From Azotobacter salinestris (GTDB taxonomy: Bacteria > Pseudomonadota > Gammaproteobacteria > Pseudomonadales > Pseudomonadaceae): DNA of 64,000 nucleotides. Below the pieces are notes generated by a model. That model worked only from the letters and a program-made list of their open reading frames with translations, made no database searches and was not told where the DNA came from. Positions 8,138 through 42,412 of the stretch are shown here, in pieces; within the stretch, counting starts at the first letter, position 1, and each line of letters begins with the position of its first letter. Made by a program: the position numbers and the translations under genes. The stretch lies in assembly GCF_009363155.1 (NCBI RefSeq), contig NZ_CP045302.1, positions 4,851,194-4,915,193 of the forward strand, read 5' to 3'.

Positions 8138-9058
8138 ATGGCAGCCATTCCGACCCGCCTGCGCACCCTGCGCGATTACATTCGCTGGGCGGTCAGCCGT
8201 TTTCATGCCGAGGGCCTGTACTTTGGTCACGGTACCGACAACGCCTGGGACGAGGCACGCCAACTGGTGCTCGGTGCCTTGCACCTGCCTTGGGAGATGG
8301 CCGACGGCTATCTGGACTGTCGTCTCGAAGAGGACGAATGCATGCATCTGGGGGCTCTACTCCAGCGCCGCATCGAGGAACGTATCCCGGCCGCCTATCT
8401 GCTCGGCGAGGCCTGGTTCTGCGGGTTGCCCTTTCTGGTCGACGAGCGGGTGCTGGTGCCGCGCTCGCCCATTGCCGAGCTGATTGGCCAACGCTTCGCT
8501 CCCTGGCTGCTACACGAGCCGATGCGGATTCTCGACCTCTGTACCGGCTCCGGCTGCATTGGCATCGCCTGTGCCTATGAGTTTCCCGAGGCCGAAGTGG
8601 TGCTGGCCGATCTGTCTTTCGACGCGCTCGAGGTGGCCAACCGGAACATCGAGCGCCATGGCCTGGACGAGCGCGTCTATACCGTGCAGGGCGATGGTTT
8701 CGTAGGACTGCCAGGGCAGCGCTTCGACTTGATCGTCTCCAATCCGCCCTATGTGGACGCCGAGGATTTTGCCGACATGCCGGAGGAGTACCACCATGAG
8801 CCGGCCATGGGGCTGGCCTGCGGCGAAGACGGCCTGGACCTGGTTCGGCGCATGCTGGCGGAGGCGGCCGACCATCTGACCGAGCGGGGCGTGCTGGTCG
8901 TCGAAGTGGGGAACAGCCAGGTGCATGTGGAGGCGCTCTATCCAGAGGTGGATTTTACCTGGCTGGAGTTCACTCGGGGCGGACATGGCGTCTTTCTGCT
9001 GAGCGCCGCCCAGTGCCGCGAGTATCAGGATCTGTTCCGCTCACGGCTTCGGGCCTGA
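8138..9058 (+). CDS. prmB: Ribosomal protein uL3 glutamine methyltransferase
   Basis: N5-glutamine methylation of ribosomal protein L3 using S-adenosylmethionine. 306 aa: an N-terminal helical substrate domain, then a Rossmann methyltransferase with [13 protein letters not shown] and the glutamine-binding VSNPPYVD. The longer helical N-terminus and [11 protein letters not shown] favour PrmB over PrmC. GGAG precedes the ATG at 8138. It converges on the alpha/beta hydrolase gene. Confidence 0.92.
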
Positions 9059-9079
9059 CCCCCTTTTGTCCGAACAGGT

Positions 9080-10033
9080 TTATCGAGGCGGCTCGTTCCG
9101 CAGGATGAAGTCGCCGACCGCCTGCTCCAGGGTGCGGGCCAGTGGCAGTTCCGGATTGTCGTAGGAGGGCAGCTGAAGCTGTACGTCCGCCGGGACGATG
9201 CGCAACACGTGATTCATGCCGTCGATCGCCAGCAGTTCGGCGTCGGGCTTGGCGGCCTTCAGGGCTTCGGCGTCCTGCATGCCGACCTGGATATCGTGGC
9301 GCCCCTGGACGATCAGTGCCGGAATGCGCAGCCGAGCAAAGGCTGCGGCTGGATCCTGGCGAAACAGCGAGATCAGGTAGGGTTGCACGCTCGGGCGAAA
9401 CAGCACCTCGAGCGGCTCGGGAATCCGCTCGTGGGTGCGTCCCGCCTTGAGCTCCTCGATCAGCGCCGCGCTGAAGGCCAGCAGGGGGGGCGGCAGGCGT
9501 GTGCTGAGTTGCTCCAGCAGTACCTGATCGATCGGGCGGCCGCTGCCAGCAATGGAGACCAAGGCGTCGGCACCGGCCTGTTCGGCGGCCAGGCTGGCGA
9601 TCAGTGCGCCCTCGCTGTGACCGATCAGCACCAGCCGAGAAAAGCGCGGGTCGGCGCCCAGCTTCTGCCCCCAGGCGGCAGCATCGGCAACGTAGCCTTC
9701 CACGCTCAGCATCCGCTCGTCCGGTGCGGCGGCCAGGCTGGCGGCGACGCCGCGCTTGTCGTAGCGCACGCTGGCGATGCCGCGTCTGGCCAGGGCCTCG
9801 GCCAGGCGCTTGAGACTGTCGTTGCGGCCGGCCGGATTGTTGCCATTGCGATCGGTGGGGCCGGAGCCGGCGATCAGCAGGGCCACGGGTACAGAATTGT
9901 CGCTTTGCGGCAGCAGCAGCGATCCGTACAGCACTCCACTCGAAGTCGCCAGCTCGATGGGCTGGTGCAGGATGGTCCAGGCATGGGCGGAGCCCGTCAC
10001 CAGGAGCAGAAGCAGCAGAAGTATTCGCAACAT
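9080..10033 (-). CDS. Exported alpha/beta hydrolase
   Basis: 317 aa beginning with a signal peptide (LRILLLLLLLVTGSAHA, cleavage likely after AHA). Mature part: oxyanion region LLIAGSGPTDRNGNN, nucleophile elbow GHSEGA, late Asp in GRHDIQVG and His in GMNHVLR. This resembles the serine hydrolase group often called alpha/beta fold hydrolase or dienelactone-hydrolase-like. Substrate unknown; periplasmic. Its start is divergent from aroC and only 112 nt away, so the promoters share that gap. Confidence 0.82.
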   Translation of the reverse strand: MLRILLLLLLLVTGSAHAWTILHQPIELATSSGVLYGSLLLPQSDNSVPVALLIAGSGPTDRNGNNPAGRNDSLKRLAEALARRGIASVRYDKRGVAASLAAAPDERMLSVEGYVADAAAWGQKLGADPRFSRLVLIGHSEGALIASLAAEQAGADALVSIAGSGRPIDQVLLEQLSTRLPPPLLAFSAALIEELKAGRTHERIPEPLEVLFRPSVQPYLISLFRQDPAAAFARLRIPALIVQGRHDIQVGMQDAEALKAAKPDAELLAIDGMNHVLRIVPADVQLQLPSYDNPELPLARTLEQAVGDFILRNEPPR

Positions 10034-10145
10034 CGTGGACAGCCATGGCGGCGCGCCGGCTGGCGCGGGGCGGAGGATGAACTGGCAGGGTCCCCTAGGT
10101 ATACTCGCACACCTTCGATCTGGCTGATTGTTCGCGGAGCCCTGC

Positions 10146-11237
10146 ATGTCCGGCAATACCTACGGCAAGCTGTTCACTGTCACCACGGCTGGCGAGAGCC
10201 ACGGCCCGGCTCTGGTCGCTATCGTCGACGGCTGTCCGTCCGGGCTGGAATTGTCGGCCGCCGACCTGCAGCGCGACCTCGACCGGCGCAAGCCGGGCAC
10301 CAGTCGCCACACGACCCAGCGTCAGGAAGACGATGCAGTGGAGATCCTCTCTGGGGTGTTCGAGGGCAGGACCACCGGCTGTCCGATCGGTCTGTTGATC
10401 CGCAACACGGATCAGAAATCCAAGGACTATTCGGCGATCAAGGACCTCTTCCGTCCGGCCCATGCCGACTACACCTACCACCACAAGTACGGCATCCGCG
10501 ACTATCGCGGCGGCGGTCGCAGCTCGGCGCGCGAGACCGCCATGCGCGTGGCGGCCGGAGCCATCGCCAAGAAGTATCTGGCGACCCAGGGCGTGGTCGT
10601 GCGCGGCTACATGAGCCAGCTCGGTCCGATCGAGATCCCCTTCAGGAGCTGGGCGTCGGTGGAGCAGAATGCTTTCTTCAGCGCCGATCCGGACAAGGTG
10701 TCCGAACTGGAGGCCTACATGGACCAGCTGCGTCGCGACCAGGATTCGGTCGGAGCCAGGATCACCGTGATCGCCGAAGGCGTGCCGCCGGGGCTCGGCG
10801 AGCCGATCTTCGACCGCTTGGATGCCGAGCTGGCCCACGCGCTGATGAGTATCAATGCGGTCAAGGGTGTGGAGATCGGCGCCGGCTTCGCCAGCATTGC
10901 CCAGCGCGGCACCGAGCACCGCGACGAGCTGACCCCGGATGGCTTCCTCTCCAACAATGCCGGCGGCATTCTTGGCGGGATCTCCTCGGGACAGCCGATC
11001 GTCGCCCATCTGGCTCTCAAGCCGACCTCCAGCATCACCACTCCGGGCCGCTCCATCGATATTCACGGCAATCCGGTCGAGGTGATCACCAAGGGACGTC
11101 ACGATCCCTGTGTCGGCATCCGTGCCACACCGATCGCCGAAGCCATGATGGCTCTGGTACTGATGGATCACCTGCTGCGCCACCGGGCACAGAATGCCGG
11201 TGTGCAGGTGAGCACTCCGGTGCTGTCGCAACTGTGA
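10146..11237 (+). CDS. aroC: Chorismate synthase
   Basis: Converts 5-enolpyruvylshikimate-3-phosphate to chorismate using reduced FMN, the last common step of aromatic amino-acid synthesis. 363 aa, typical length. Signatures: [32 protein letters not shown] and the C-terminal [18 protein letters not shown]. The start is taken at 10146 because MSGNTYGK is the usual N-terminus. The MFS gene follows after 94 nt. Confidence 0.97.
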
Positions 11238-11331
11238 GCCGGAGCGCAGGCCGGTCGAGACACCACGATTCCCGACAGCCGGCGCGCTGGCTGTCGTCCG
11301 GAACCTCGACCCGGCTCGCGTCCTACTAGTC

Positions 11332-36297: not shown

Positions 36298-36530
36298 GCT
36301 GCACGCTCCTCCTGTGAGGCCAGGCGGTTGATGCAGCGCTGCCTGGCCAGCTCTTCGTGGCCGAGGCGCTCGATTTCAAAGGCGTCGCAATCCAGCAGCT
36401 TGCCGAGCTCACGAACGTCATACGGAGCGTCGGCCAGTTCAATACCAGTGACGGTGAACAGGTCTACGCCGCCCTCGCTGTAAACCTCCAGCGTCAGCTG
36501 GAGCCCCCGGTGCTCAATGGCGATTTCCAT
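36294..36530 (-). CDS. 78-aa phage protein
   Basis: Small beta-strand start (IEHRGLQLTLEVYSEGGVDL) and helical end. Overlaps both neighbours. Unknown. Confidence 0.6.
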   Translation of the reverse strand: MEIAIEHRGLQLTLEVYSEGGVDLFTVTGIELADAPYDVRELGKLLDCDAFEIERLGHEELARQRCINRLASQEERAA

Positions 36531-36876
36531 GCTGCTCTCCTGCCTGCATTTGCGATGCGCCAGGTATGCGCTCGAAGATCCTCCAGGCTTCGCCGGGATC
36601 GATGCGGGAGGGGCCGACGTGGCGCAGTTTGGTGCCGTCGGGCAGCTCCAGGAGGATGACGGGCTCTACCAGCGCCTGGTCGCTGGTGTTGACGGCGGTC
36701 GCCACTGCCCAAGAGTCGTGGGCGGTGTCCAGGATCTGCACGTTCCGCAGGGTGACGTCCGGCGCCGGAAGCTCGGCGCCCTGGGCCTCGTGGGTGGCCA
36801 GGGCTCCGGCAGCAAAGATCAGCAGGGTAGAGGCCGCGGCGACGCCGGCCGATTGCACTATGTCGATCAGCTTCAT
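36514..36876 (-). CDS. Exported or membrane-anchored phage protein
   Basis: 120 aa. Hydrophobic N-terminus (SAGVAAASTLLIFAAGALA) ends in a plausible signal-peptidase site, followed by a beta-rich domain (VTLRNVQILDTAHDSWAVAT) that resembles small immunoglobulin-like FxLYD folds. Overlaps the next gene by 17 nt. Confidence 0.55.
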   Translation of the reverse strand: MKLIDIVQSAGVAAASTLLIFAAGALATHEAQGAELPAPDVTLRNVQILDTAHDSWAVATAVNTSDQALVEPVILLELPDGTKLRHVGPSRIDPGEAWRIFERIPGASQMQAGEQHGNRH

Positions 36877-36984
36877 GTGAGGGTTCTCGTTTGGTCGGGG
36901 GTGGGTGTCGCGCGCGCATGAGGAAGCCGCCTCGGAGCGGAGGGGGCTTTCTGATGAGGACGGGGATCTGGAGAAAGAGGGGGC

Positions 36985-37223
36985 GGCCGGTTACGCCGGC
37001 CAGGCGGGCACTCTGTCGCCACTGGCGTGCCTGCCAGCAAGGGGAGGAAGATACCTGACTTGCGGATTACTCGAACCGACTGGTGCGTCTTGCCGGGGAC
37101 ATGAAACCCAGCGTGGCCATTGCAGGAATGGCCGACTCACGCTGTCGGCATGCCGATCCGCCGACGGTGTTTGCAGGGTAGGCTACGAGATATACAGCCA
37201 GCCAAGCGGCTGGCTCTCTGCAA
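36985..37223 (+). ncRNA. Structured RNA unit 1 of a three-unit tandem array
   Basis: Conserved order of hairpins: H1 GGCCGG-ttacg-CCGGCC (36985-37001); H2 GGCAC (37007-37011) with GTGCC (37027-37031), 15-nt loop; a conserved CTTGCGGATTACT segment; H3 GGCCATT-5nt-AATGGCC (37115-37133); H4 GCCG (37152-37155) with CGGT (37165-37168). The tail adds TTGCAG/CTGCAA enclosing an 8-bp AGCCAGCC/GGCTGGCT hairpin (37196-37215). G-U pairs in H2 and H4 only make sense on the plus strand. No conserved reading frame across units. Confidence 0.65.
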
Positions 37224-37253
37224 GACAGAAGGTAGGCAAGGAGGATTGGGAAT

Positions 37254-37465
37254 GGCCGGTTACGCCGGCCAGGCGGTCACTCTGTTGACGCCTGCGTGAC
37301 TACAGGCGGGGACGGTGTCACGAACTTCCGTGTCTTGCAGATTATTCAAACCGGCTACGCGCTTTGCAGGGGGACAAGGTGCCCTGGCGTGGCCATTAGG
37401 AATGGCCAGCTGACGCTGCCAGCATGCCGATCTGCCGACGGCTCCTTGCAGATGCCTATTGCAAG
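37254..37465 (+). ncRNA. Structured RNA unit 2 of a three-unit tandem array
   Basis: Same order as unit 1: H1 37254-37270 (identical arms); H2 is GTCAC (37276-37280) with GTGAC (37296-37300), a compensatory change from GGCAC/GTGCC, again with a 15-nt loop; conserved CTTGCAGATTATT; H3 GGCCATT-agg-AATGGCC (37391-37407); H4 GCCG/CGGC (37426-37442), where unit 1 has a G-U pair. Tail hairpin CTTGCA/TGCAAG (37445-37465), followed by another, TACTCCC/GGGAGTA (37473-37497). Confidence 0.65.
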
Positions 37466-37623
37466 TATGAAGTACTCCCCTCAGCTGACAGGGAGTAATA
37501 AGTAAGGTAGCTATCGGGTAGCTCTTTACAAACCCAGCGGTAGGAAGGTCCTTCCCTGCGCTATTCACAGGACTCATGCAGCACATGTGCTACCGGGTCT
37601 TCTTGAAAAAAGGTTGGAAGTGT

Positions 37624-37841
37624 GGCCGGTTACGCCGGCCAAGCGGGCACTCTGTTGCCGCTGGCGTGCCTACCAGGAGGAGAGGGCTGATGAGCTTCCC
37701 CCGGCTTGCAGATTACTTTTACAGGCCGCGCGCCTTGCCGGTGCCGTGAGACCCGGCGTGGCCATTGTGGGCAATGGCCGGCTGACGCGGCTTGCATACC
37801 GATCTGCCTACGGTGTGCCTTTTATCATATGCAAATGATAA
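37624..37841 (+). ncRNA. Structured RNA unit 3 of a three-unit tandem array
   Basis: H1 37624-37640; H2 GGCAC/GTGCC (37646-37670, 15-nt loop); conserved CTTGCAGATTACT; H3 extended by one pair, GGCCATTG-4nt-CAATGGCC (37760-37779); H4 ACCG/CGGT (37798-37814), where unit 2 has GCCG/CGGC. Tail TTATCAT-6nt-ATGATAA (37822-37841) followed by an AT-rich run that could end transcription. Confidence 0.65.
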
Positions 37842-37849
37842 TTATTATC
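37831..37849. promoter_or_regulatory. Fur-box-like sequence
   Basis: GCAAATGATAATTATTATC matches the 19-bp Fur consensus at 16 positions. It overlaps the tail hairpin of RNA unit 3 and is not in front of an obvious gene, so the match may come from AT-rich hairpin sequence. Confidence 0.3.
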
Positions 37850-37889
37850 AAATTGTCCGCGACGAATGGCATCAATGCACACTGCCAGG

Positions 37890-38153
37890 CTACCTGGTGC
37901 GGATGCCGGCAGCGTGGATGGCAGTGCGGCATTTGTCCCATGCCGGCGTCCCTGAGATGTGGTACTTCATGTCCTCCCTTGGAGGCAGCTCGATCACCAG
38001 CGCCTCACGCGAAGCCTTCCAGGCTGCAAAGGCCATGTTCAGCTTGTCCCACTCGTAGATTTCGCCGTCCCGCTCTAGGTCAGTTGGCGTCACGTCTACA
38101 ACTGTACGGTAGACCCACGACTCGAACTCGGCGCGGAGCTTTGTCTCGTCCAT
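37890..38153 (-). CDS. 87-aa phage protein
   Basis: Second gene of the leftward early operon. Contains WDKLNMAFAAWKASREALV, a short segment shared by many small early proteins of Pseudomonas phages, and ends in PAWDKCRTAIHAAG. AGGAG ten bases upstream. Unknown. Confidence 0.6.
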   Translation of the reverse strand: MDETKLRAEFESWVYRTVVDVTPTDLERDGEIYEWDKLNMAFAAWKASREALVIELPPREDMKYHISGTPAWDKCRTAIHAAGIRTR

Positions 38154-38896: not shown

Positions 38897-39163
38897 CTAG
38901 TTGGTCTGGGGGGCGGGCTCGATATACCAGGAAAGGCGCACGCGCCCGTCGTCCTGCGGTGTCACATGCACTCCTTCGGTATCTCTGATCTCGTCCAGCA
39001 GCCTTTCCCAGTCCTGAGGTGACTCATCCAGCCTTCGGCTGATCACCGTTTGCTGCGCGGCTTGGGCACTAGGCGTGCTGATCGCATCCCTGATGCGCAG
39101 AGCCAGCCGCTCGTAGCTGGAGATTTGTGGTTGATTTGAAGGCTTGACCCTTGCTCGCGACAT
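38897..39163 (-). CDS. DUF1654 protein, copy 1
   Basis: 88 aa from the ATG at 39163 (AAGGAG upstream). SSYERLALRIRDAISTPSAQ and ESPQDWERLLDEIRDTEGV are the DUF1654 signature, a small Pseudomonas family that often lies near phage regulators; function unknown. Two related genes lie at 41179 and 41876. Confidence 0.75.
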   Translation of the reverse strand: MSRARVKPSNQPQISSYERLALRIRDAISTPSAQAAQQTVISRRLDESPQDWERLLDEIRDTEGVHVTPQDDGRVRLSWYIEPAPQTN

Positions 39164-39416
39164 ACAACATCTCCTTACCGCTTCGCTGTATGTCCATACA
39201 GTAGTAATGGCTAATCGCCGGATCAAGTGATTCGGAGTTGCCTCTCTGGCGATATGTAAACTTTTTGAGCAGGTTCAGCCTGCTTCAAGATCCCAGAGAA
39301 GCTGCTGGTTGGCTTGAAACAGAAAGTGTCATTTTAATGGCGTATTGACCTTGCCTGATACCAAAGTGCCAGAAAAATGATATTTTAGGTTCCAGGATGC
39401 CCAGGGAGCAGTAGCG

Positions 39417-39692
39417 ATGACATTCGACGCAATCCTATTTTTCGCATTGGCGGGCTGTGGCTTGTTTGCCATAGGCCTCTACATCGAGGAATGGACACGT
39501 CCCAAAGATGAGCGCGCTCCGGATCCGGACGAGATGGCGGACGATGAGCTTCTTTTCATTGGCTGGGACTGGCTCACGCCGGCTGCCAGACGGCAGCGCT
39601 TGGCGTTGTACCAACGGCGCGTGCAGACCAAGATCGCTAAGCAGGAGAGGGCTTGGCTTCGGGAGCGGCCAAGCGCGTGTGCGAAAAGGTGA
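39417..39692 (+). CDS. Small membrane protein array, member 1
   Basis: 91 aa. One N-terminal transmembrane helix (ILFFALAGCGLFAIGLYIEE), an acidic linker, then the family's shared helix: WDWLTPAARRQRLALYQRR and KQERAWLRER. AGGGAG before the ATG. Related to the next five genes or remnants. Location between pL and the repressor, where lambda carries rex, suggests an exclusion or immunity role by position only. Confidence 0.65.
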   Translation: MTFDAILFFALAGCGLFAIGLYIEEWTRPKDERAPDPDEMADDELLFIGWDWLTPAARRQRLALYQRRVQTKIAKQERAWLRERPSACAKR

Positions 39693-39794
39693 CATGAAGA
39701 ACGTGTGGGGAAAGCTGTGACCCGTAGCTTTGAGTTTGCCTCGATGCCGGATTAGGATTACCGACTGACTTTTGCCAAGCCAAGGAGGGCGCTG

Positions 39795-40064
39795 ATGGTC
39801 ATTGAAGTCGTTGTTGTAGTCGTGGTGCTGGGCTGCTGCCTAGTCGCGCTTTTGAAGCATCCTGGGGAAAAGCTGCCGCGGCCGGATCTTGAAGCCAGCC
39901 TGGAAACTGTCGACGACACCGGTCTGTTCCGCGGTTGGGATGAACTCACCAGCAGCGAGCAGAAGAGGCGCCTAGCAATCTATCAGCAGCGCGTGCGGGC
40001 CCGGATCGCAGAGCAGGAGAGGGAGTGGCTGCGGGAGAGGCTGAGGGTGGTTGCGAAAGGATGA
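39795..40064 (+). CDS. Small membrane protein array, member 2
   Basis: 89 aa with a Val-rich membrane helix, linker, then WDELTSSEQKRRLAIYQQRV and AEQEREWLRERL. AAGGAGG six bases upstream. The C-terminal helix is close to those of members 1 and 6, the membrane part is not. Confidence 0.65.
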   Translation: MVIEVVVVVVVLGCCLVALLKHPGEKLPRPDLEASLETVDDTGLFRGWDELTSSEQKRRLAIYQQRVRARIAEQEREWLRERLRVVAKG

Positions 40065-40169
40065 GACGAAAAGCCCCATGCTAGACAGGCCTGTTGGTCA
40101 GTAGACCTTCTCAAGGCGAGATCGCCTGCTACAGTGATTAAAAAATCACCAAGCCATGGAGGGCATCCT

Positions 40170-40418
40170 ATGTGGACGATCAGCACTATTTTTTTCCTTG
40201 CGCTATTGAGTTGCAGCCTATTCGCCTTGGGGCTGTGGCTGAATGCACAATCAAAAGACCCGCATGACTTTGACGACGCTGTTCTGGAGAACATGCGCAA
40301 CGATCAGGGGCTGCTCTGCAACTGGAAAGGGCTCACGCCCTTTGAGCAGAAGATGCGGCTCGCGCTGTATCAGCAGCATGCGCGCGATCAGGTCGCCGAG
40401 GAGCAGAAAAGGGCCTAG
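40170..40418 (+). CDS. Small membrane protein array, member 3, truncated by a stop
   Basis: 82 aa: membrane helix TISTIFFLALLSCSLFALGL, then WKGLTPFEQKMRLALYQQH. A TAG at 40416-40418 replaces the codon before LQDRLGECAKG, the family's usual C-terminus, which is still encoded in frame after it. GGAGG seven bases upstream; a hairpin (40134-40149) lies before the ribosome site. Confidence 0.6.
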   Translation: MWTISTIFFLALLSCSLFALGLWLNAQSKDPHDFDDAVLENMRNDQGLLCNWKGLTPFEQKMRLALYQQHARDQVAEEQKRA

Positions 40419-40561
40419 CTGCAAGATCGGCTGGGGGAGTGCGCGAAGGGGTGATGCGAAAAGCCCCGAGCTAGATAGCGCTCTGCTGGTCCGTAAGCCT
40501 TCTCAAGGTGAAATCGCCTGCTACAGTGGTTACAAGACCACTAAGCCATGGAGGGTAATCT

Positions 40562-40735
40562 ATGTGGGCGATCAACACCGTTTCTCTTCTCGCGCTTTTG
40601 AGCTGTGGGCTGTTTGCTTTGGAATGTATTTGATTGTGCGATCAAAGAGCCTGCATGATTTTGCCAACACTATGCCAGATAATGTGAGTGACGATCAGGG
40701 GGCTTGGTAGCTGGAAAGGTCTCATGCTTTCTGAG
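40562..40735 (+). pseudogene. Small membrane protein array, member 4 (broken)
   Basis: ATG at 40562 with GGAGGG reads WAINTVSLLALLSCGLFALE then a stop; a +1 frame continues with YLIVRSKSLHDF and DDQGAW as in member 3. A frameshift and loss of the C-terminal helix make it a remnant. The upstream sequence (40498-40561) duplicates that of member 3. Confidence 0.65.
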
Positions 40736-40806
40736 GAAAAACATGCCAAGTAAACTGCAGCCACTCTGCTACAGTTACAACATCACCATGCCATGGAGGG
40801 TGATCT

Positions 40807-41016
40807 ATGTTGACCAACAATGCTCTTTCCCTTGCGCTGTTGTTCTGCGGTTTGTTCGTCCTGAGGCTGTATTTGAACAAATGGATACGATTGAAAGAGT
40901 TGCGTAGGTTTGACGGCGTGCCGAGCGATATGCTGGACAAGTTCGCCGAGCAAGAGCGGGTTTGGCTGCGGTTGAAGCGGTTGGAGAGCGGACTTGGAGG
41001 TCAGAAAGGAAGGTAA
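40807..41016 (+). CDS. Small membrane protein array, member 5, internal deletion
   Basis: 69 aa: membrane helix SLALLFCGLFVLRLYLNK, then directly KFAEQERVWLRLKRLE, so the LTPxEQ segment of the other members is missing. GGAGG seven bases upstream. Whether it is functional is unclear. Confidence 0.55.
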   Translation: MLTNNALSLALLFCGLFVLRLYLNKWIRLKELRRFDGVPSDMLDKFAEQERVWLRLKRLESGLGGQKGR

Positions 41017-41178: not shown

Positions 41179-41430
41179 TTAGTCGGCCGGCACGGTCCAA
41201 GTAAGCCGAACACCATCGCCCTCGACGTATTCGACCCTGACATTCTCAGCCTCGGCAACCTCCTCGATGAAGCGCGACCAGTCTGCTGCCGATTCTTCCG
41301 GCAGGCGGTGGACTGTCACATCCCTGGCCTGCTGCGCCTTCGGTGAGTTGATGAGCTTCTGAATGCGAGCGCCCATCAGCTCATAGCTTGAGGACTGGCG
41401 GACGGCGGTTTTCTTGCCTGGCTTGGCCAT
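41179..41430 (-). CDS. DUF1654 protein, copy 2
   Basis: 83 aa: SSYELMGARIQKLINSPKAQ and EESAADWSRFIEEVAEAENV. AGGAG nine bases before the ATG at 41430. Same family as the gene at 38897. Confidence 0.75.
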   Translation of the reverse strand: MAKPGKKTAVRQSSSYELMGARIQKLINSPKAQQARDVTVHRLPEESAADWSRFIEEVAEAENVRVEYVEGDGVRLTWTVPAD

Positions 41431-41581: not shown

Positions 41582-41839
41582 ATGACACCTACCATGCTTC
41601 TTTTTGCGCTGGCCGGCTTTCTTCTATCCGTTGTTTGTGCAGCCCTCGGCATGTGGGTACGCCAGCATGCAGCCGCCGAGGCAGACCAATCTGCTGATCT
41701 TTTCCACGACTGGAATCGGTTTACGCCTGAAGAACGCAGGAGAATTCTGGCGGGTCATCGGAGGCGCGTTCTAGCCCGACTCGCCGATCAGGAGAAGGCC
41801 TGGCTGCGAGAGCGGCTGGGGGAGTGTGCGAAGGGGTGA
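41582..41839 (+). CDS. Small membrane protein array, member 6
   Basis: 85 aa: membrane helix FALAGFLLSVVCAALGMWV, then WNRFTPEERRRILAGHRRRV and ADQEKAWLRERLGECAKG. Intact version of the family pattern. AGGGAAG upstream of the ATG. Confidence 0.65.
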   Translation: MTPTMLLFALAGFLLSVVCAALGMWVRQHAAAEADQSADLFHDWNRFTPEERRRILAGHRRRVLARLADQEKAWLRERLGECAKG

Positions 41840-41875: not shown

Positions 41876-42292
41876 TCACGCTCTGGGCTGCGAGAACTCG
41901 CCTGCCGCCCAGAGCTGTTCAAACTCTTTTCGGAATCGTGCTTCTCGAGCCGTGTAGACATCAACGCGAGCTTGAGATTCAGGGAGTTCGCAGGCCTGGG
42001 CGGGGGTGTAGAAGCGCTCCCATGCTTCATTCTTCTGCCGCTCTTGCTCGGCACGTTGGCGCATCGCCTCCTTTTGCTGAGCGACTCGCTCACGTTCAAG
42101 CTGGATCTCTTGAGCTGACAAAGAGGAGTTGATCGCGACCTTATCGCTCTCGACGATTGCATCGAGGAAGTGTTCCCAACCAGCCTCGAATTTAGCTGAT
42201 AGGAGTTGGATGATCGCTTCCCCTGCCATCTGGGTGGCCAACGAGCTGATGATCTTCTGGATTCGAGTGCCCTCTGTACCGTGCCAACTCAT
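41876..42292 (-). CDS. DUF1654-like protein, copy 3, with coiled-coil extension
   Basis: 138 aa. The N-terminal ~50 residues (TRIQKIISSLATQMAGEAII, GWEHFLDAIVESDKV) align with the other two DUF1654 genes; then a Glu/Gln/Arg coiled coil (LERERVAQQKEAMRQRAEQE) and a new C-terminus. The usual SSYE start is missing; a TTG at 42322 is another possible start. The IS4 element lies 121 nt upstream. Confidence 0.6.
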   Translation of the reverse strand: MSWHGTEGTRIQKIISSLATQMAGEAIIQLLSAKFEAGWEHFLDAIVESDKVAINSSLSAQEIQLERERVAQQKEAMRQRAEQERQKNEAWERFYTPAQACELPESQARVDVYTAREARFRKEFEQLWAAGEFSQPRA

Positions 42293-42412
42293 CTTCCAGC
42301 GCCCCAATAAAGCCTGCCCCAACAGCTTCTAGCATATCAGCAAAATCAAGTTGCACGCCGACGGCGCCACTGTAAACGACCGGCTCGACCGTCAACAGAT
42401 GGGGTTTATGGA

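Follow-up and report, generated by a model that had tools for sequence, protein, structure and literature searches.

PrrF and ArrF are Fur-regulated small RNAs (sRNAs) of Pseudomonas and Azotobacter, and PrrF has a model in Rfam. The RNA units described here, three of which lie in tandem in a prophage of the nitrogen-fixing soil bacterium Azotobacter, resemble them in the tandem arrangement of related copies, in the closeness of the host groups and in the putative Fur-box-like palindrome that seven of 51 units have at their promoters. However, neither the array nor 11 related loci match Rfam, most copies are without the palindrome, and the long-range and pseudoknot fold, the arrays in prophages and the lack of any U-run terminator in our scan also set them apart. 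The CsrA-titrating sRNAs RsmX/Y/Z and CsrB likewise occur in several copies per genome, and five of the eight copies of the new RNA in other genera adjoin a csrA-type gene. CsrA-sponge sRNAs carry several GGA motifs, whereas GGA is depleted in the new units (mean 1.6 per unit versus 3.7 expected, over 51 units on the minus strand), which argues against CsrA as the partner; a role as CsrA sponge was set aside.

GOLLD and ROOL are, like the present family, complex conserved structured RNAs of unclear role found partly in phages, but the units studied here are much shorter, have no Rfam match and also occupy fixed sites in host chromosomes. Type III antitoxin RNAs consist of tandem pseudoknot repeats of about 35 nt, with a ToxN-type toxin gene adjoining the array. 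Here, in contrast, the units measure about 190 nt and the linkers 28 nt or more. The two genes flanking the window array have no Pfam match.

The array and its prophage

The window, that is the whole 64-kb stretch of DNA analysed (G000:C2:4851194-4915193, from a genome of 5.29 Mb), contains three RNA units according to the covariance model R1 (Table 1). An earlier note, made from the sequence alone, had described three tandem units with identical arms of a hairpin H1 and a hairpin H2 of the form GGCAC/GTGCC, or GTCAC/GTGAC in unit 2, with a loop of 15 nt, separated by linkers that differ; all these features are present, H1 being GGCCGG/CCGGCC. The host element is a prophage whose integrase gene adjoins a tRNA-Ser gene, and it also encodes a PD-(D/E)XK nuclease, a protein whose weak match to RecT falls short of the curated cut-off, and a pair of proteins matching DUF1654.

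Two groups of paralogous genes were observed near the array. Three small phage proteins are encoded on the minus strand at 38897-39226, 41179-41430 and 41876-42322, and it is the first two of these that match DUF1654. In a comparison of 25 loci, 12 had members of this cluster. On the plus strand, 39417-41016 holds four tandem ORFs of 69-94 aa with a hydrophobic start, a fifth being visible by eye near 41582; relatives of these ORFs (cluster 1) are found at other loci of the set.

Table 1. Coordinates of the RNA units, putative promoter elements and neighbouring genes in the window
Feature	Position	Strand	Details
Downstream gene next to the array	36514-36876	minus	120 aa; no Pfam match; same strand
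RNA unit 1	36983-37169	minus (predicted)	R1 187.4 bits; strand predicted from unpaired-base composition, promoter scan and neighbours
Pseudoknot of unit 1	37007-37038	minus (predicted)	S1 37007-37011/37027-37031; S2 37021-37025/37034-37038; both helices covary over 59 units
Weak promoter-like site of unit 1, TTGGCT-19-TACCCT	37175-37205	minus	32/100 shuffles as high; not significant alone
RNA unit 2, GTCAC/GTGAC subtype	37252-37443	minus (predicted)	R1 185.4 bits
RNA unit 3	37622-37815	minus (predicted)	R1 192.8 bits; clusters with chromosomal ettA-site copies, tree support 94/84
Predicted unit 3 promoter, TTGATA-16-TATGAT	37824-37851	minus	two independent scans; score 16.4; 2/100 shuffles as high
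Perfect palindrome TGATAATTATTATCA, Fur-box-like	37836-37850	.	overlaps unit 3 -35; G000:C2:4889029-4889043; one of three perfect sites in the genome
Upstream gene next to the array	37890-38153	minus	87 aa; no Pfam match; same strand

Distribution of the family

From the R1 searches and the loci fetched we collected 59 units: 34 in four Azotobacter genomes (16 in G000, 4 in G001, 9 in G002 and 5 in G003), 17 in three viral contigs and eight single copies in other genera of the same taxonomic family. Two of the viral contigs are nearly alike and carry seven tandem units each, and one unit of the third is cut at the contig end. In keeping with the assignment of the genus, the NifH of G003 is identical over 272 residues to a PDB chain named nitrogenase iron protein 1, which is that of A. 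vinelandii. Genome searches with a covariance model, a check proposed in the earlier note, returned homologues in the genus, in viral contigs and in other genera that keep the pairing.

A DNA search of 57 genomes gave matches confined to the four genomes of the genus. Among 398 genomes of the taxonomic family, 17 matched at E 1e-4 or better. Besides the genomes of the genus itself, all four of which are included, we took eight to be genuine (177-193 nt, 42-84 bits) and put five down to chance. With a second model, R2, two of 293 genomes of the order matched, namely the window genome and G601, which belongs to a different family, while the window genome alone matched among 369 genomes of the class and G601 alone among 38 genomes around G601; scans over 40 genomes used stricter filters and lose weak matches. 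Five of six viral stretches bearing the motif hold the RNA, and a second viral pattern yielded one chance match and nothing else new. In collections that may omit the window genome itself or its near kin, neither a distant blastn search of phage records nor a search of plasmid records found relatives of the array, and of the 86 stretches from a contig pattern scan, 80 were run with R1 and none contains the RNA (best 17.1 bits).

Several candidates were discarded or merged. Of 43 matches to R1 within the genus, nine (18.8-30.1 bits) were dropped before counting, and those in G061, G127, G209, G216 and G361 were dropped as well, all appearing by eye to be H1 only in coding-like DNA; L094 (16.8 bits) and L213 (8.0 bits, inside a predicted gene) are chance matches. 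The viral contigs L091 and L093, whose scores are exactly those of G113 and G105, were counted once.

The earlier note knew of no matching phage RNA, and no family is matched in Rfam 15 either, where cmscan gave a tRNA as the sole match in the window and nothing in the 11 related loci. Even at E up to 10 the array produced only seven sub-threshold hits (best E 0.57), which lie far below the gathering scores and are due to chance. A literature search with thin coverage of subscription journals found no paper on these RNAs. They form an uncatalogued multi-copy structured RNA family common to Azotobacter and prophages.

Fold and covariation

In the set of 28 units, pairing holds in 93.2% of 1219 cells, and two-sided changes occur at 20 of the 44 pairs. 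None of 500 shuffles reached the observed value on four of five measures, and five did so on the remaining one, the number of further pair types. The enlarged set of 59 units gave 92.8% of 2503 cells paired and 37 of 44 pairs changing on both sides, with no shuffle out of 500 reaching the observed value on any of the five measures, in an alignment that was fitted to R1 and so favours nested pairs; sliding the partners lowered pairing to 22-44%. The proposal that these units are structured RNAs under selection, beyond chance, is thus upheld on both sets. The pseudoknot helix (GCTGG/CCAGC type), which is absent from R1, shows two-sided changes at every one of its five pairs.

The fold, which like the family itself is a computed result, would consist of three parts: a long-range stem, in whose conserved internal loop UUCGAGUA stands opposite CGGCAUG; a junction bearing two hairpins; and a 3' pseudoknot, the loop of which is GGCGACAGA. 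Among the genus and viral rows, UUCGAGUA and the opposite CGGCAUG are each found in 33 of 51, compared with four and three of the eight rows of other genera, respectively. On the minus strand, the pseudoknot loop GGCGACAGA occurs in 25 of 51 and four of eight rows, and TTCGAGTA in 33 of 51 and four of eight. The stretch UUCGAGU presumably resembles a T-loop. We also weighed by eye whether the pseudoknot loop pairs with the 3' end, and dropped the idea since subtypes break such a pairing. RNAalifold, which cannot draw pseudoknots, keeps S2 and puts a 3-bp hairpin in the place of S1, which means that S1 and S2 may be alternatives to each other. In window unit 1 the outer pair of S2 is A-C.

One part of the first description has to be revised. 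Compensatory changes had been reported for a hairpin H4, whose three inner pairs never vary over 28 units and whose outer pair fits 21 of them without covariation. The H4 bases belong instead to one strand of a covarying long-range helix (GCAGAT/ATCTGC, GCGGAT/ATCCGC, GCCGTT/AACGGC). The long-range domain, the pseudoknot and the other copies of the family were missing from that description.

Which strand is transcribed

The units had first been read on the plus strand, against the phage operon, on the grounds that G-U pairs fit this strand only. On 28 units we counted 35 G-U and 44 A-C pairs, nearly equal numbers that are odd for an RNA of either strand; the larger alignment gave 52 G-U versus 74 A-C in genus and viral rows and 19 versus 10 in the eight rows of other genera. 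On the main set the wobble pairs therefore give no support to the plus strand.

Other evidence points to the minus strand. We scanned 51 units for sigma-70-like sites with approximate score weights and with L092 left out of the scan as nearly the same phage as L089; the best site scored higher before the minus 5' end in 39 units (36 of 43 from the genus and viruses, three of the eight others). Two of the seven genus and viral exceptions (L089 U5 and L034 U5) are sites in the palindrome of the neighbouring unit. On the minus strand, 25 of the 43 genus and viral units have their best -10 ending 5-8 nt short of the unit boundary, versus six on the plus strand. At 15 phage-type loci we looked at the nearest ORFs for which another locus holds a homologue (L043 had no such ORF); 13 of 14 downstream and 11 of 13 upstream are co-directional with the minus strand, and within 3 kb the majority of ORFs with a homologue elsewhere are so oriented, by 74 to 20. 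Unpaired positions on the plus strand contain more U (774) than A (537), so that on the minus strand unpaired A exceeds U. The consensus structure is more stable on the minus strand in 23 of 28 units, and the 20 nt that follow H1 on this strand are 75% pyrimidine, versus 53% in the next 20 nt (43 units). From promoters, neighbour direction, unpaired-base composition, stability of the consensus structure and the pyrimidines of the 3' flank, we conclude that the RNA is very probably transcribed from the minus strand; it would therefore run with the phage operon and not opposite to it.

Regulatory RNAs on the plus strand are, on these data, quite improbable. Unconstrained folding is slightly lower on that strand in 19 of 28 units (mean -85.5 versus -82.1), plus-strand promoter scores are as high or higher in five of the eight rows of other genera, and the same rows show the G-U excess given above, albeit in an alignment fitted to a plus-strand model. 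Yet the G-U and A-C counts of the genus set, the greater minus-strand stability of the consensus structure, the promoters in the genus, the neighbours and the loops all speak against the plus strand. The equality of G-U and A-C counts, together with copies that are both dispersed and tandem, could also be expected of an element acting as DNA, such as a mobile repeat or a folded single-stranded site. Such an element is very improbable in view of the covariation of the long-range helix and the pseudoknot, of promoters sited at the unit edge and of an orthologous copy conserved along with its promoter.

Promoters and a Fur-box-like palindrome

The predicted promoter of unit 3, TTGATA-16-TATGAT, overlaps the perfect palindrome TGATAATAATTATCA, called Fur-box-like here on the basis of the Fur consensus. 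This arrangement recurs: in seven of the 51 units TTGATA-16-TAT(A/G/T)AT ends 5-8 nt before the unit, with 0-2 of 100 shuffles scoring as high, and every one of these strong promoters overlaps TGATAATNATTATCA, either exact or with a single mismatch. Outside them most sites are not significant singly, and the median shuffle p over all 51 units is 0.38 on the minus and 0.48 on the plus strand. In the window, the promoter scan found no promoter at the usual place for unit 2, and the -10 of the weak site of unit 1 lies at the commonest -10 position in the family. The scan for intrinsic terminators, including those with a U-run or of the U-rich Hfq-binding kind, found none.

In the whole genome the perfect palindrome occurs at three places, all of them promoters of these RNAs: one belongs to the copy at the ettA site, one to an array of a different prophage and one to unit 3 of the window. 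A reversed control pattern has no perfect hit. By this computation the perfect palindrome is unique to the promoters of the family. Allowing up to two mismatches adds six sites (two for the reversed control), three of which lie near a ferritin gene, a gene for an MbtH protein and an ECF sigma/FecR pair. The other three lie by an ABC ATPase of unstated substrate, behind the gene of an outer membrane efflux protein and by no clear gene. Because the perfect palindromes all lie in promoters of the RNA, and in view of the genes by the weaker sites, control of the palindrome-type promoters by Fur is likely.

Two further recurring stretches were noticed near the predicted 5' ends. Units with a GTCTTTC-type H1 loop (L032, L035, L038 and L041) share by eye another palindrome, imperfect and rich in AT (ATGTTGTTTTAATAATAACAT-like), which precedes a TATCAT box; it lies after the last unit on the plus strand, roughly 45-70 nt upstream of the minus 5' end, and is perhaps the site of another regulator. 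The linkers of many units (e.g. window 37170-37230) contain, past the minus 5' end, a second stretch with the hairpin AGCCAAGCGGCT followed by a TTAAAYGCAG-like run. This stretch was noticed only within the genus, and RNAalifold draws no consensus hairpin there.

Chromosomal copies and exchange between units

The family extends beyond phages, with copies next to core genes at two places in the chromosome. Three genomes have the RNA upstream of thrS-infC-rpmI-rplT, and all four have it near an ABC-F gene (these gene names, and that of the ettA-like ABC-F gene, are those we take the sequences to represent). At the ettA site, identity between G000 and G003 is 0.89 and 0.86 in the two windows covering the unit and 0.62 in the promoter window, versus 0.30-0.45 in nine 100-column windows downstream. 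The values of 0.13 and 0.00 just before the promoter reflect a gap in G003; farther upstream, diverged windows are interspersed with others that are conserved (0.70-0.89). G001 is too near G000 to add much, and G002 has kept the unit (0.78-0.83) with a different promoter and two extra units. A stand-alone host copy is therefore conserved at an orthologous chromosomal site amid diverged DNA.

In a tree of 52 units, from which L092 was also excluded, the last two units of the thrS-site array cluster according to their position across three species, whereas unit 3 of the window falls together with the units of the ettA site and a single further unit from a prophage (support 94/84). Rows of other genera form long branches and their placement is unsure. 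The prophage units L089 U4 and L034 U4 group with the GTCAC type and have a promoter side of the palindrome type, which suggests that promoter and pseudoknot halves have been shuffled between units.

In L034, an insert of 2.5 kb (8821-11304) splits the array between units 2 and 3, and the linker of unit 2 resumes beyond it. The insert is bounded by an 8-base direct repeat and looks by eye like an insertion sequence.

Gene neighbours in other genera

In the other genera the RNA is single and mostly packed between genes. A csrA-type gene precedes it by 10-232 nt at L083, L084, L086 and L088. At L189 the order is the RNA, a gap of 42 nt, a csrA-type gene and then a GerE (LuxR-type) gene, and a GerE gene follows directly after 22 nt in L085 and 10 nt in L202. 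L087 and L188 have neither gene beside the RNA.

Such positions directly between genes, ending 10-42 nt before or standing shortly downstream of a regulator gene, and the common direction of the minus strand and the operon would suit a cis-acting element of the early operon mRNA, for instance an attenuator or riboswitch-like leader controlling the next gene, such as csrA or a LuxR-type regulator. We consider this explanation unlikely for the family, as chromosomal copies beside core genes lie away from the operon, arrays place up to seven units ahead of a single gene, the units of the genus have putative promoters of their own and the following genes vary by locus. The copies in the other genera may nevertheless be cis elements.

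csrA was also rejected as an obligate partner, because nine csrA-bearing records fetched out of 85 (five of them P. aeruginosa or Pseudomonas phages and one a chromosome-like contig) contain no convincing RNA, the best match having 8.6 bits and E 0.45. In phi297 and PP9W, csrA, the nuclease and RecT follow the same order as in the RNA-bearing prophages, yet the RNA was not found. Phage csrA genes are already known in print, and the passages on them in that paper do not mention this RNA (PMC7366521). In the Vibrio phages L211 and L212, csrA is followed by about 400 nt of similar-looking DNA with no annotated gene, in which inverted repeats are seen by eye; R2 gave no match in this gap.

A model for the RNA and its significance

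Since the host has copies outside the operon, units have promoters of their own and the paralogues of an array differ in theirs, we favour stand-alone structured sRNA genes on the minus strand, with one promoter type under Fur, which probably act in trans on a common partner; the chance that this reading is right seems to us about even. Each unit would be its own gene for a structured sRNA of about 190-200 nt, read in the direction of the leftward early operon of the phage, with a 5' end near CCGTCGGCAGAT and a 3' end at the H1 hairpin followed by a pyrimidine-rich stretch. Paralogous units would have different promoters, that of the unit 3 type having the Fur-box-like palindrome over its -35, so that iron would repress it and iron starvation would turn it on. 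The host genus would retain copies at fixed chromosomal sites while prophages carry arrays of up to seven, so that copy number and promoter variety could set dose and timing. The RNAs may then bind a common partner, a protein or RNP, and titrate or modify it. Unlike the family and its fold, which were computed, this trans action is something that we infer, as are the strand and the Fur control.

Trans action appears the likeliest mode because fold and loops are kept and linear segments vary. A family of base-pairing sRNAs, whose C/U-rich single-stranded segments would bind the ribosome-binding sites of target mRNAs, can be imagined from the pyrimidine-rich 3' flank, from runs resembling an anti-Shine-Dalgarno sequence in 20 of 43 units and from the variation among units of the segment before the pseudoknot. 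We regard it as rather improbable, given that conservation lies in the fold and loops and that no terminator of the Hfq-binding type came out of the scan; a protein or RNP partner would fit this conservation better than base-pairing.

A broader version of the trans-acting sRNA model, which we put forward only tentatively and hold to be more doubtful than not, sees in the family a new class of structured RNA that serves host and prophage alike as an interchangeable regulator. The phage would bank up to seven paralogues with their own sensor promoters and shuffled promoter and pseudoknot halves, coupling lysogen physiology (iron starvation, for one promoter type) to the dosing of a common RNA-binding target.

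The present work adds a well-supported structured RNA family with no match in Rfam 15, present in temperate phages as well as chromosomally in a genus that fixes nitrogen, and the covariation model and the exact promoter make this family directly testable. If the iron control is true, iron starvation would be tied to a prophage-borne RNA in a bacterium whose nitrogenase is itself an iron enzyme.
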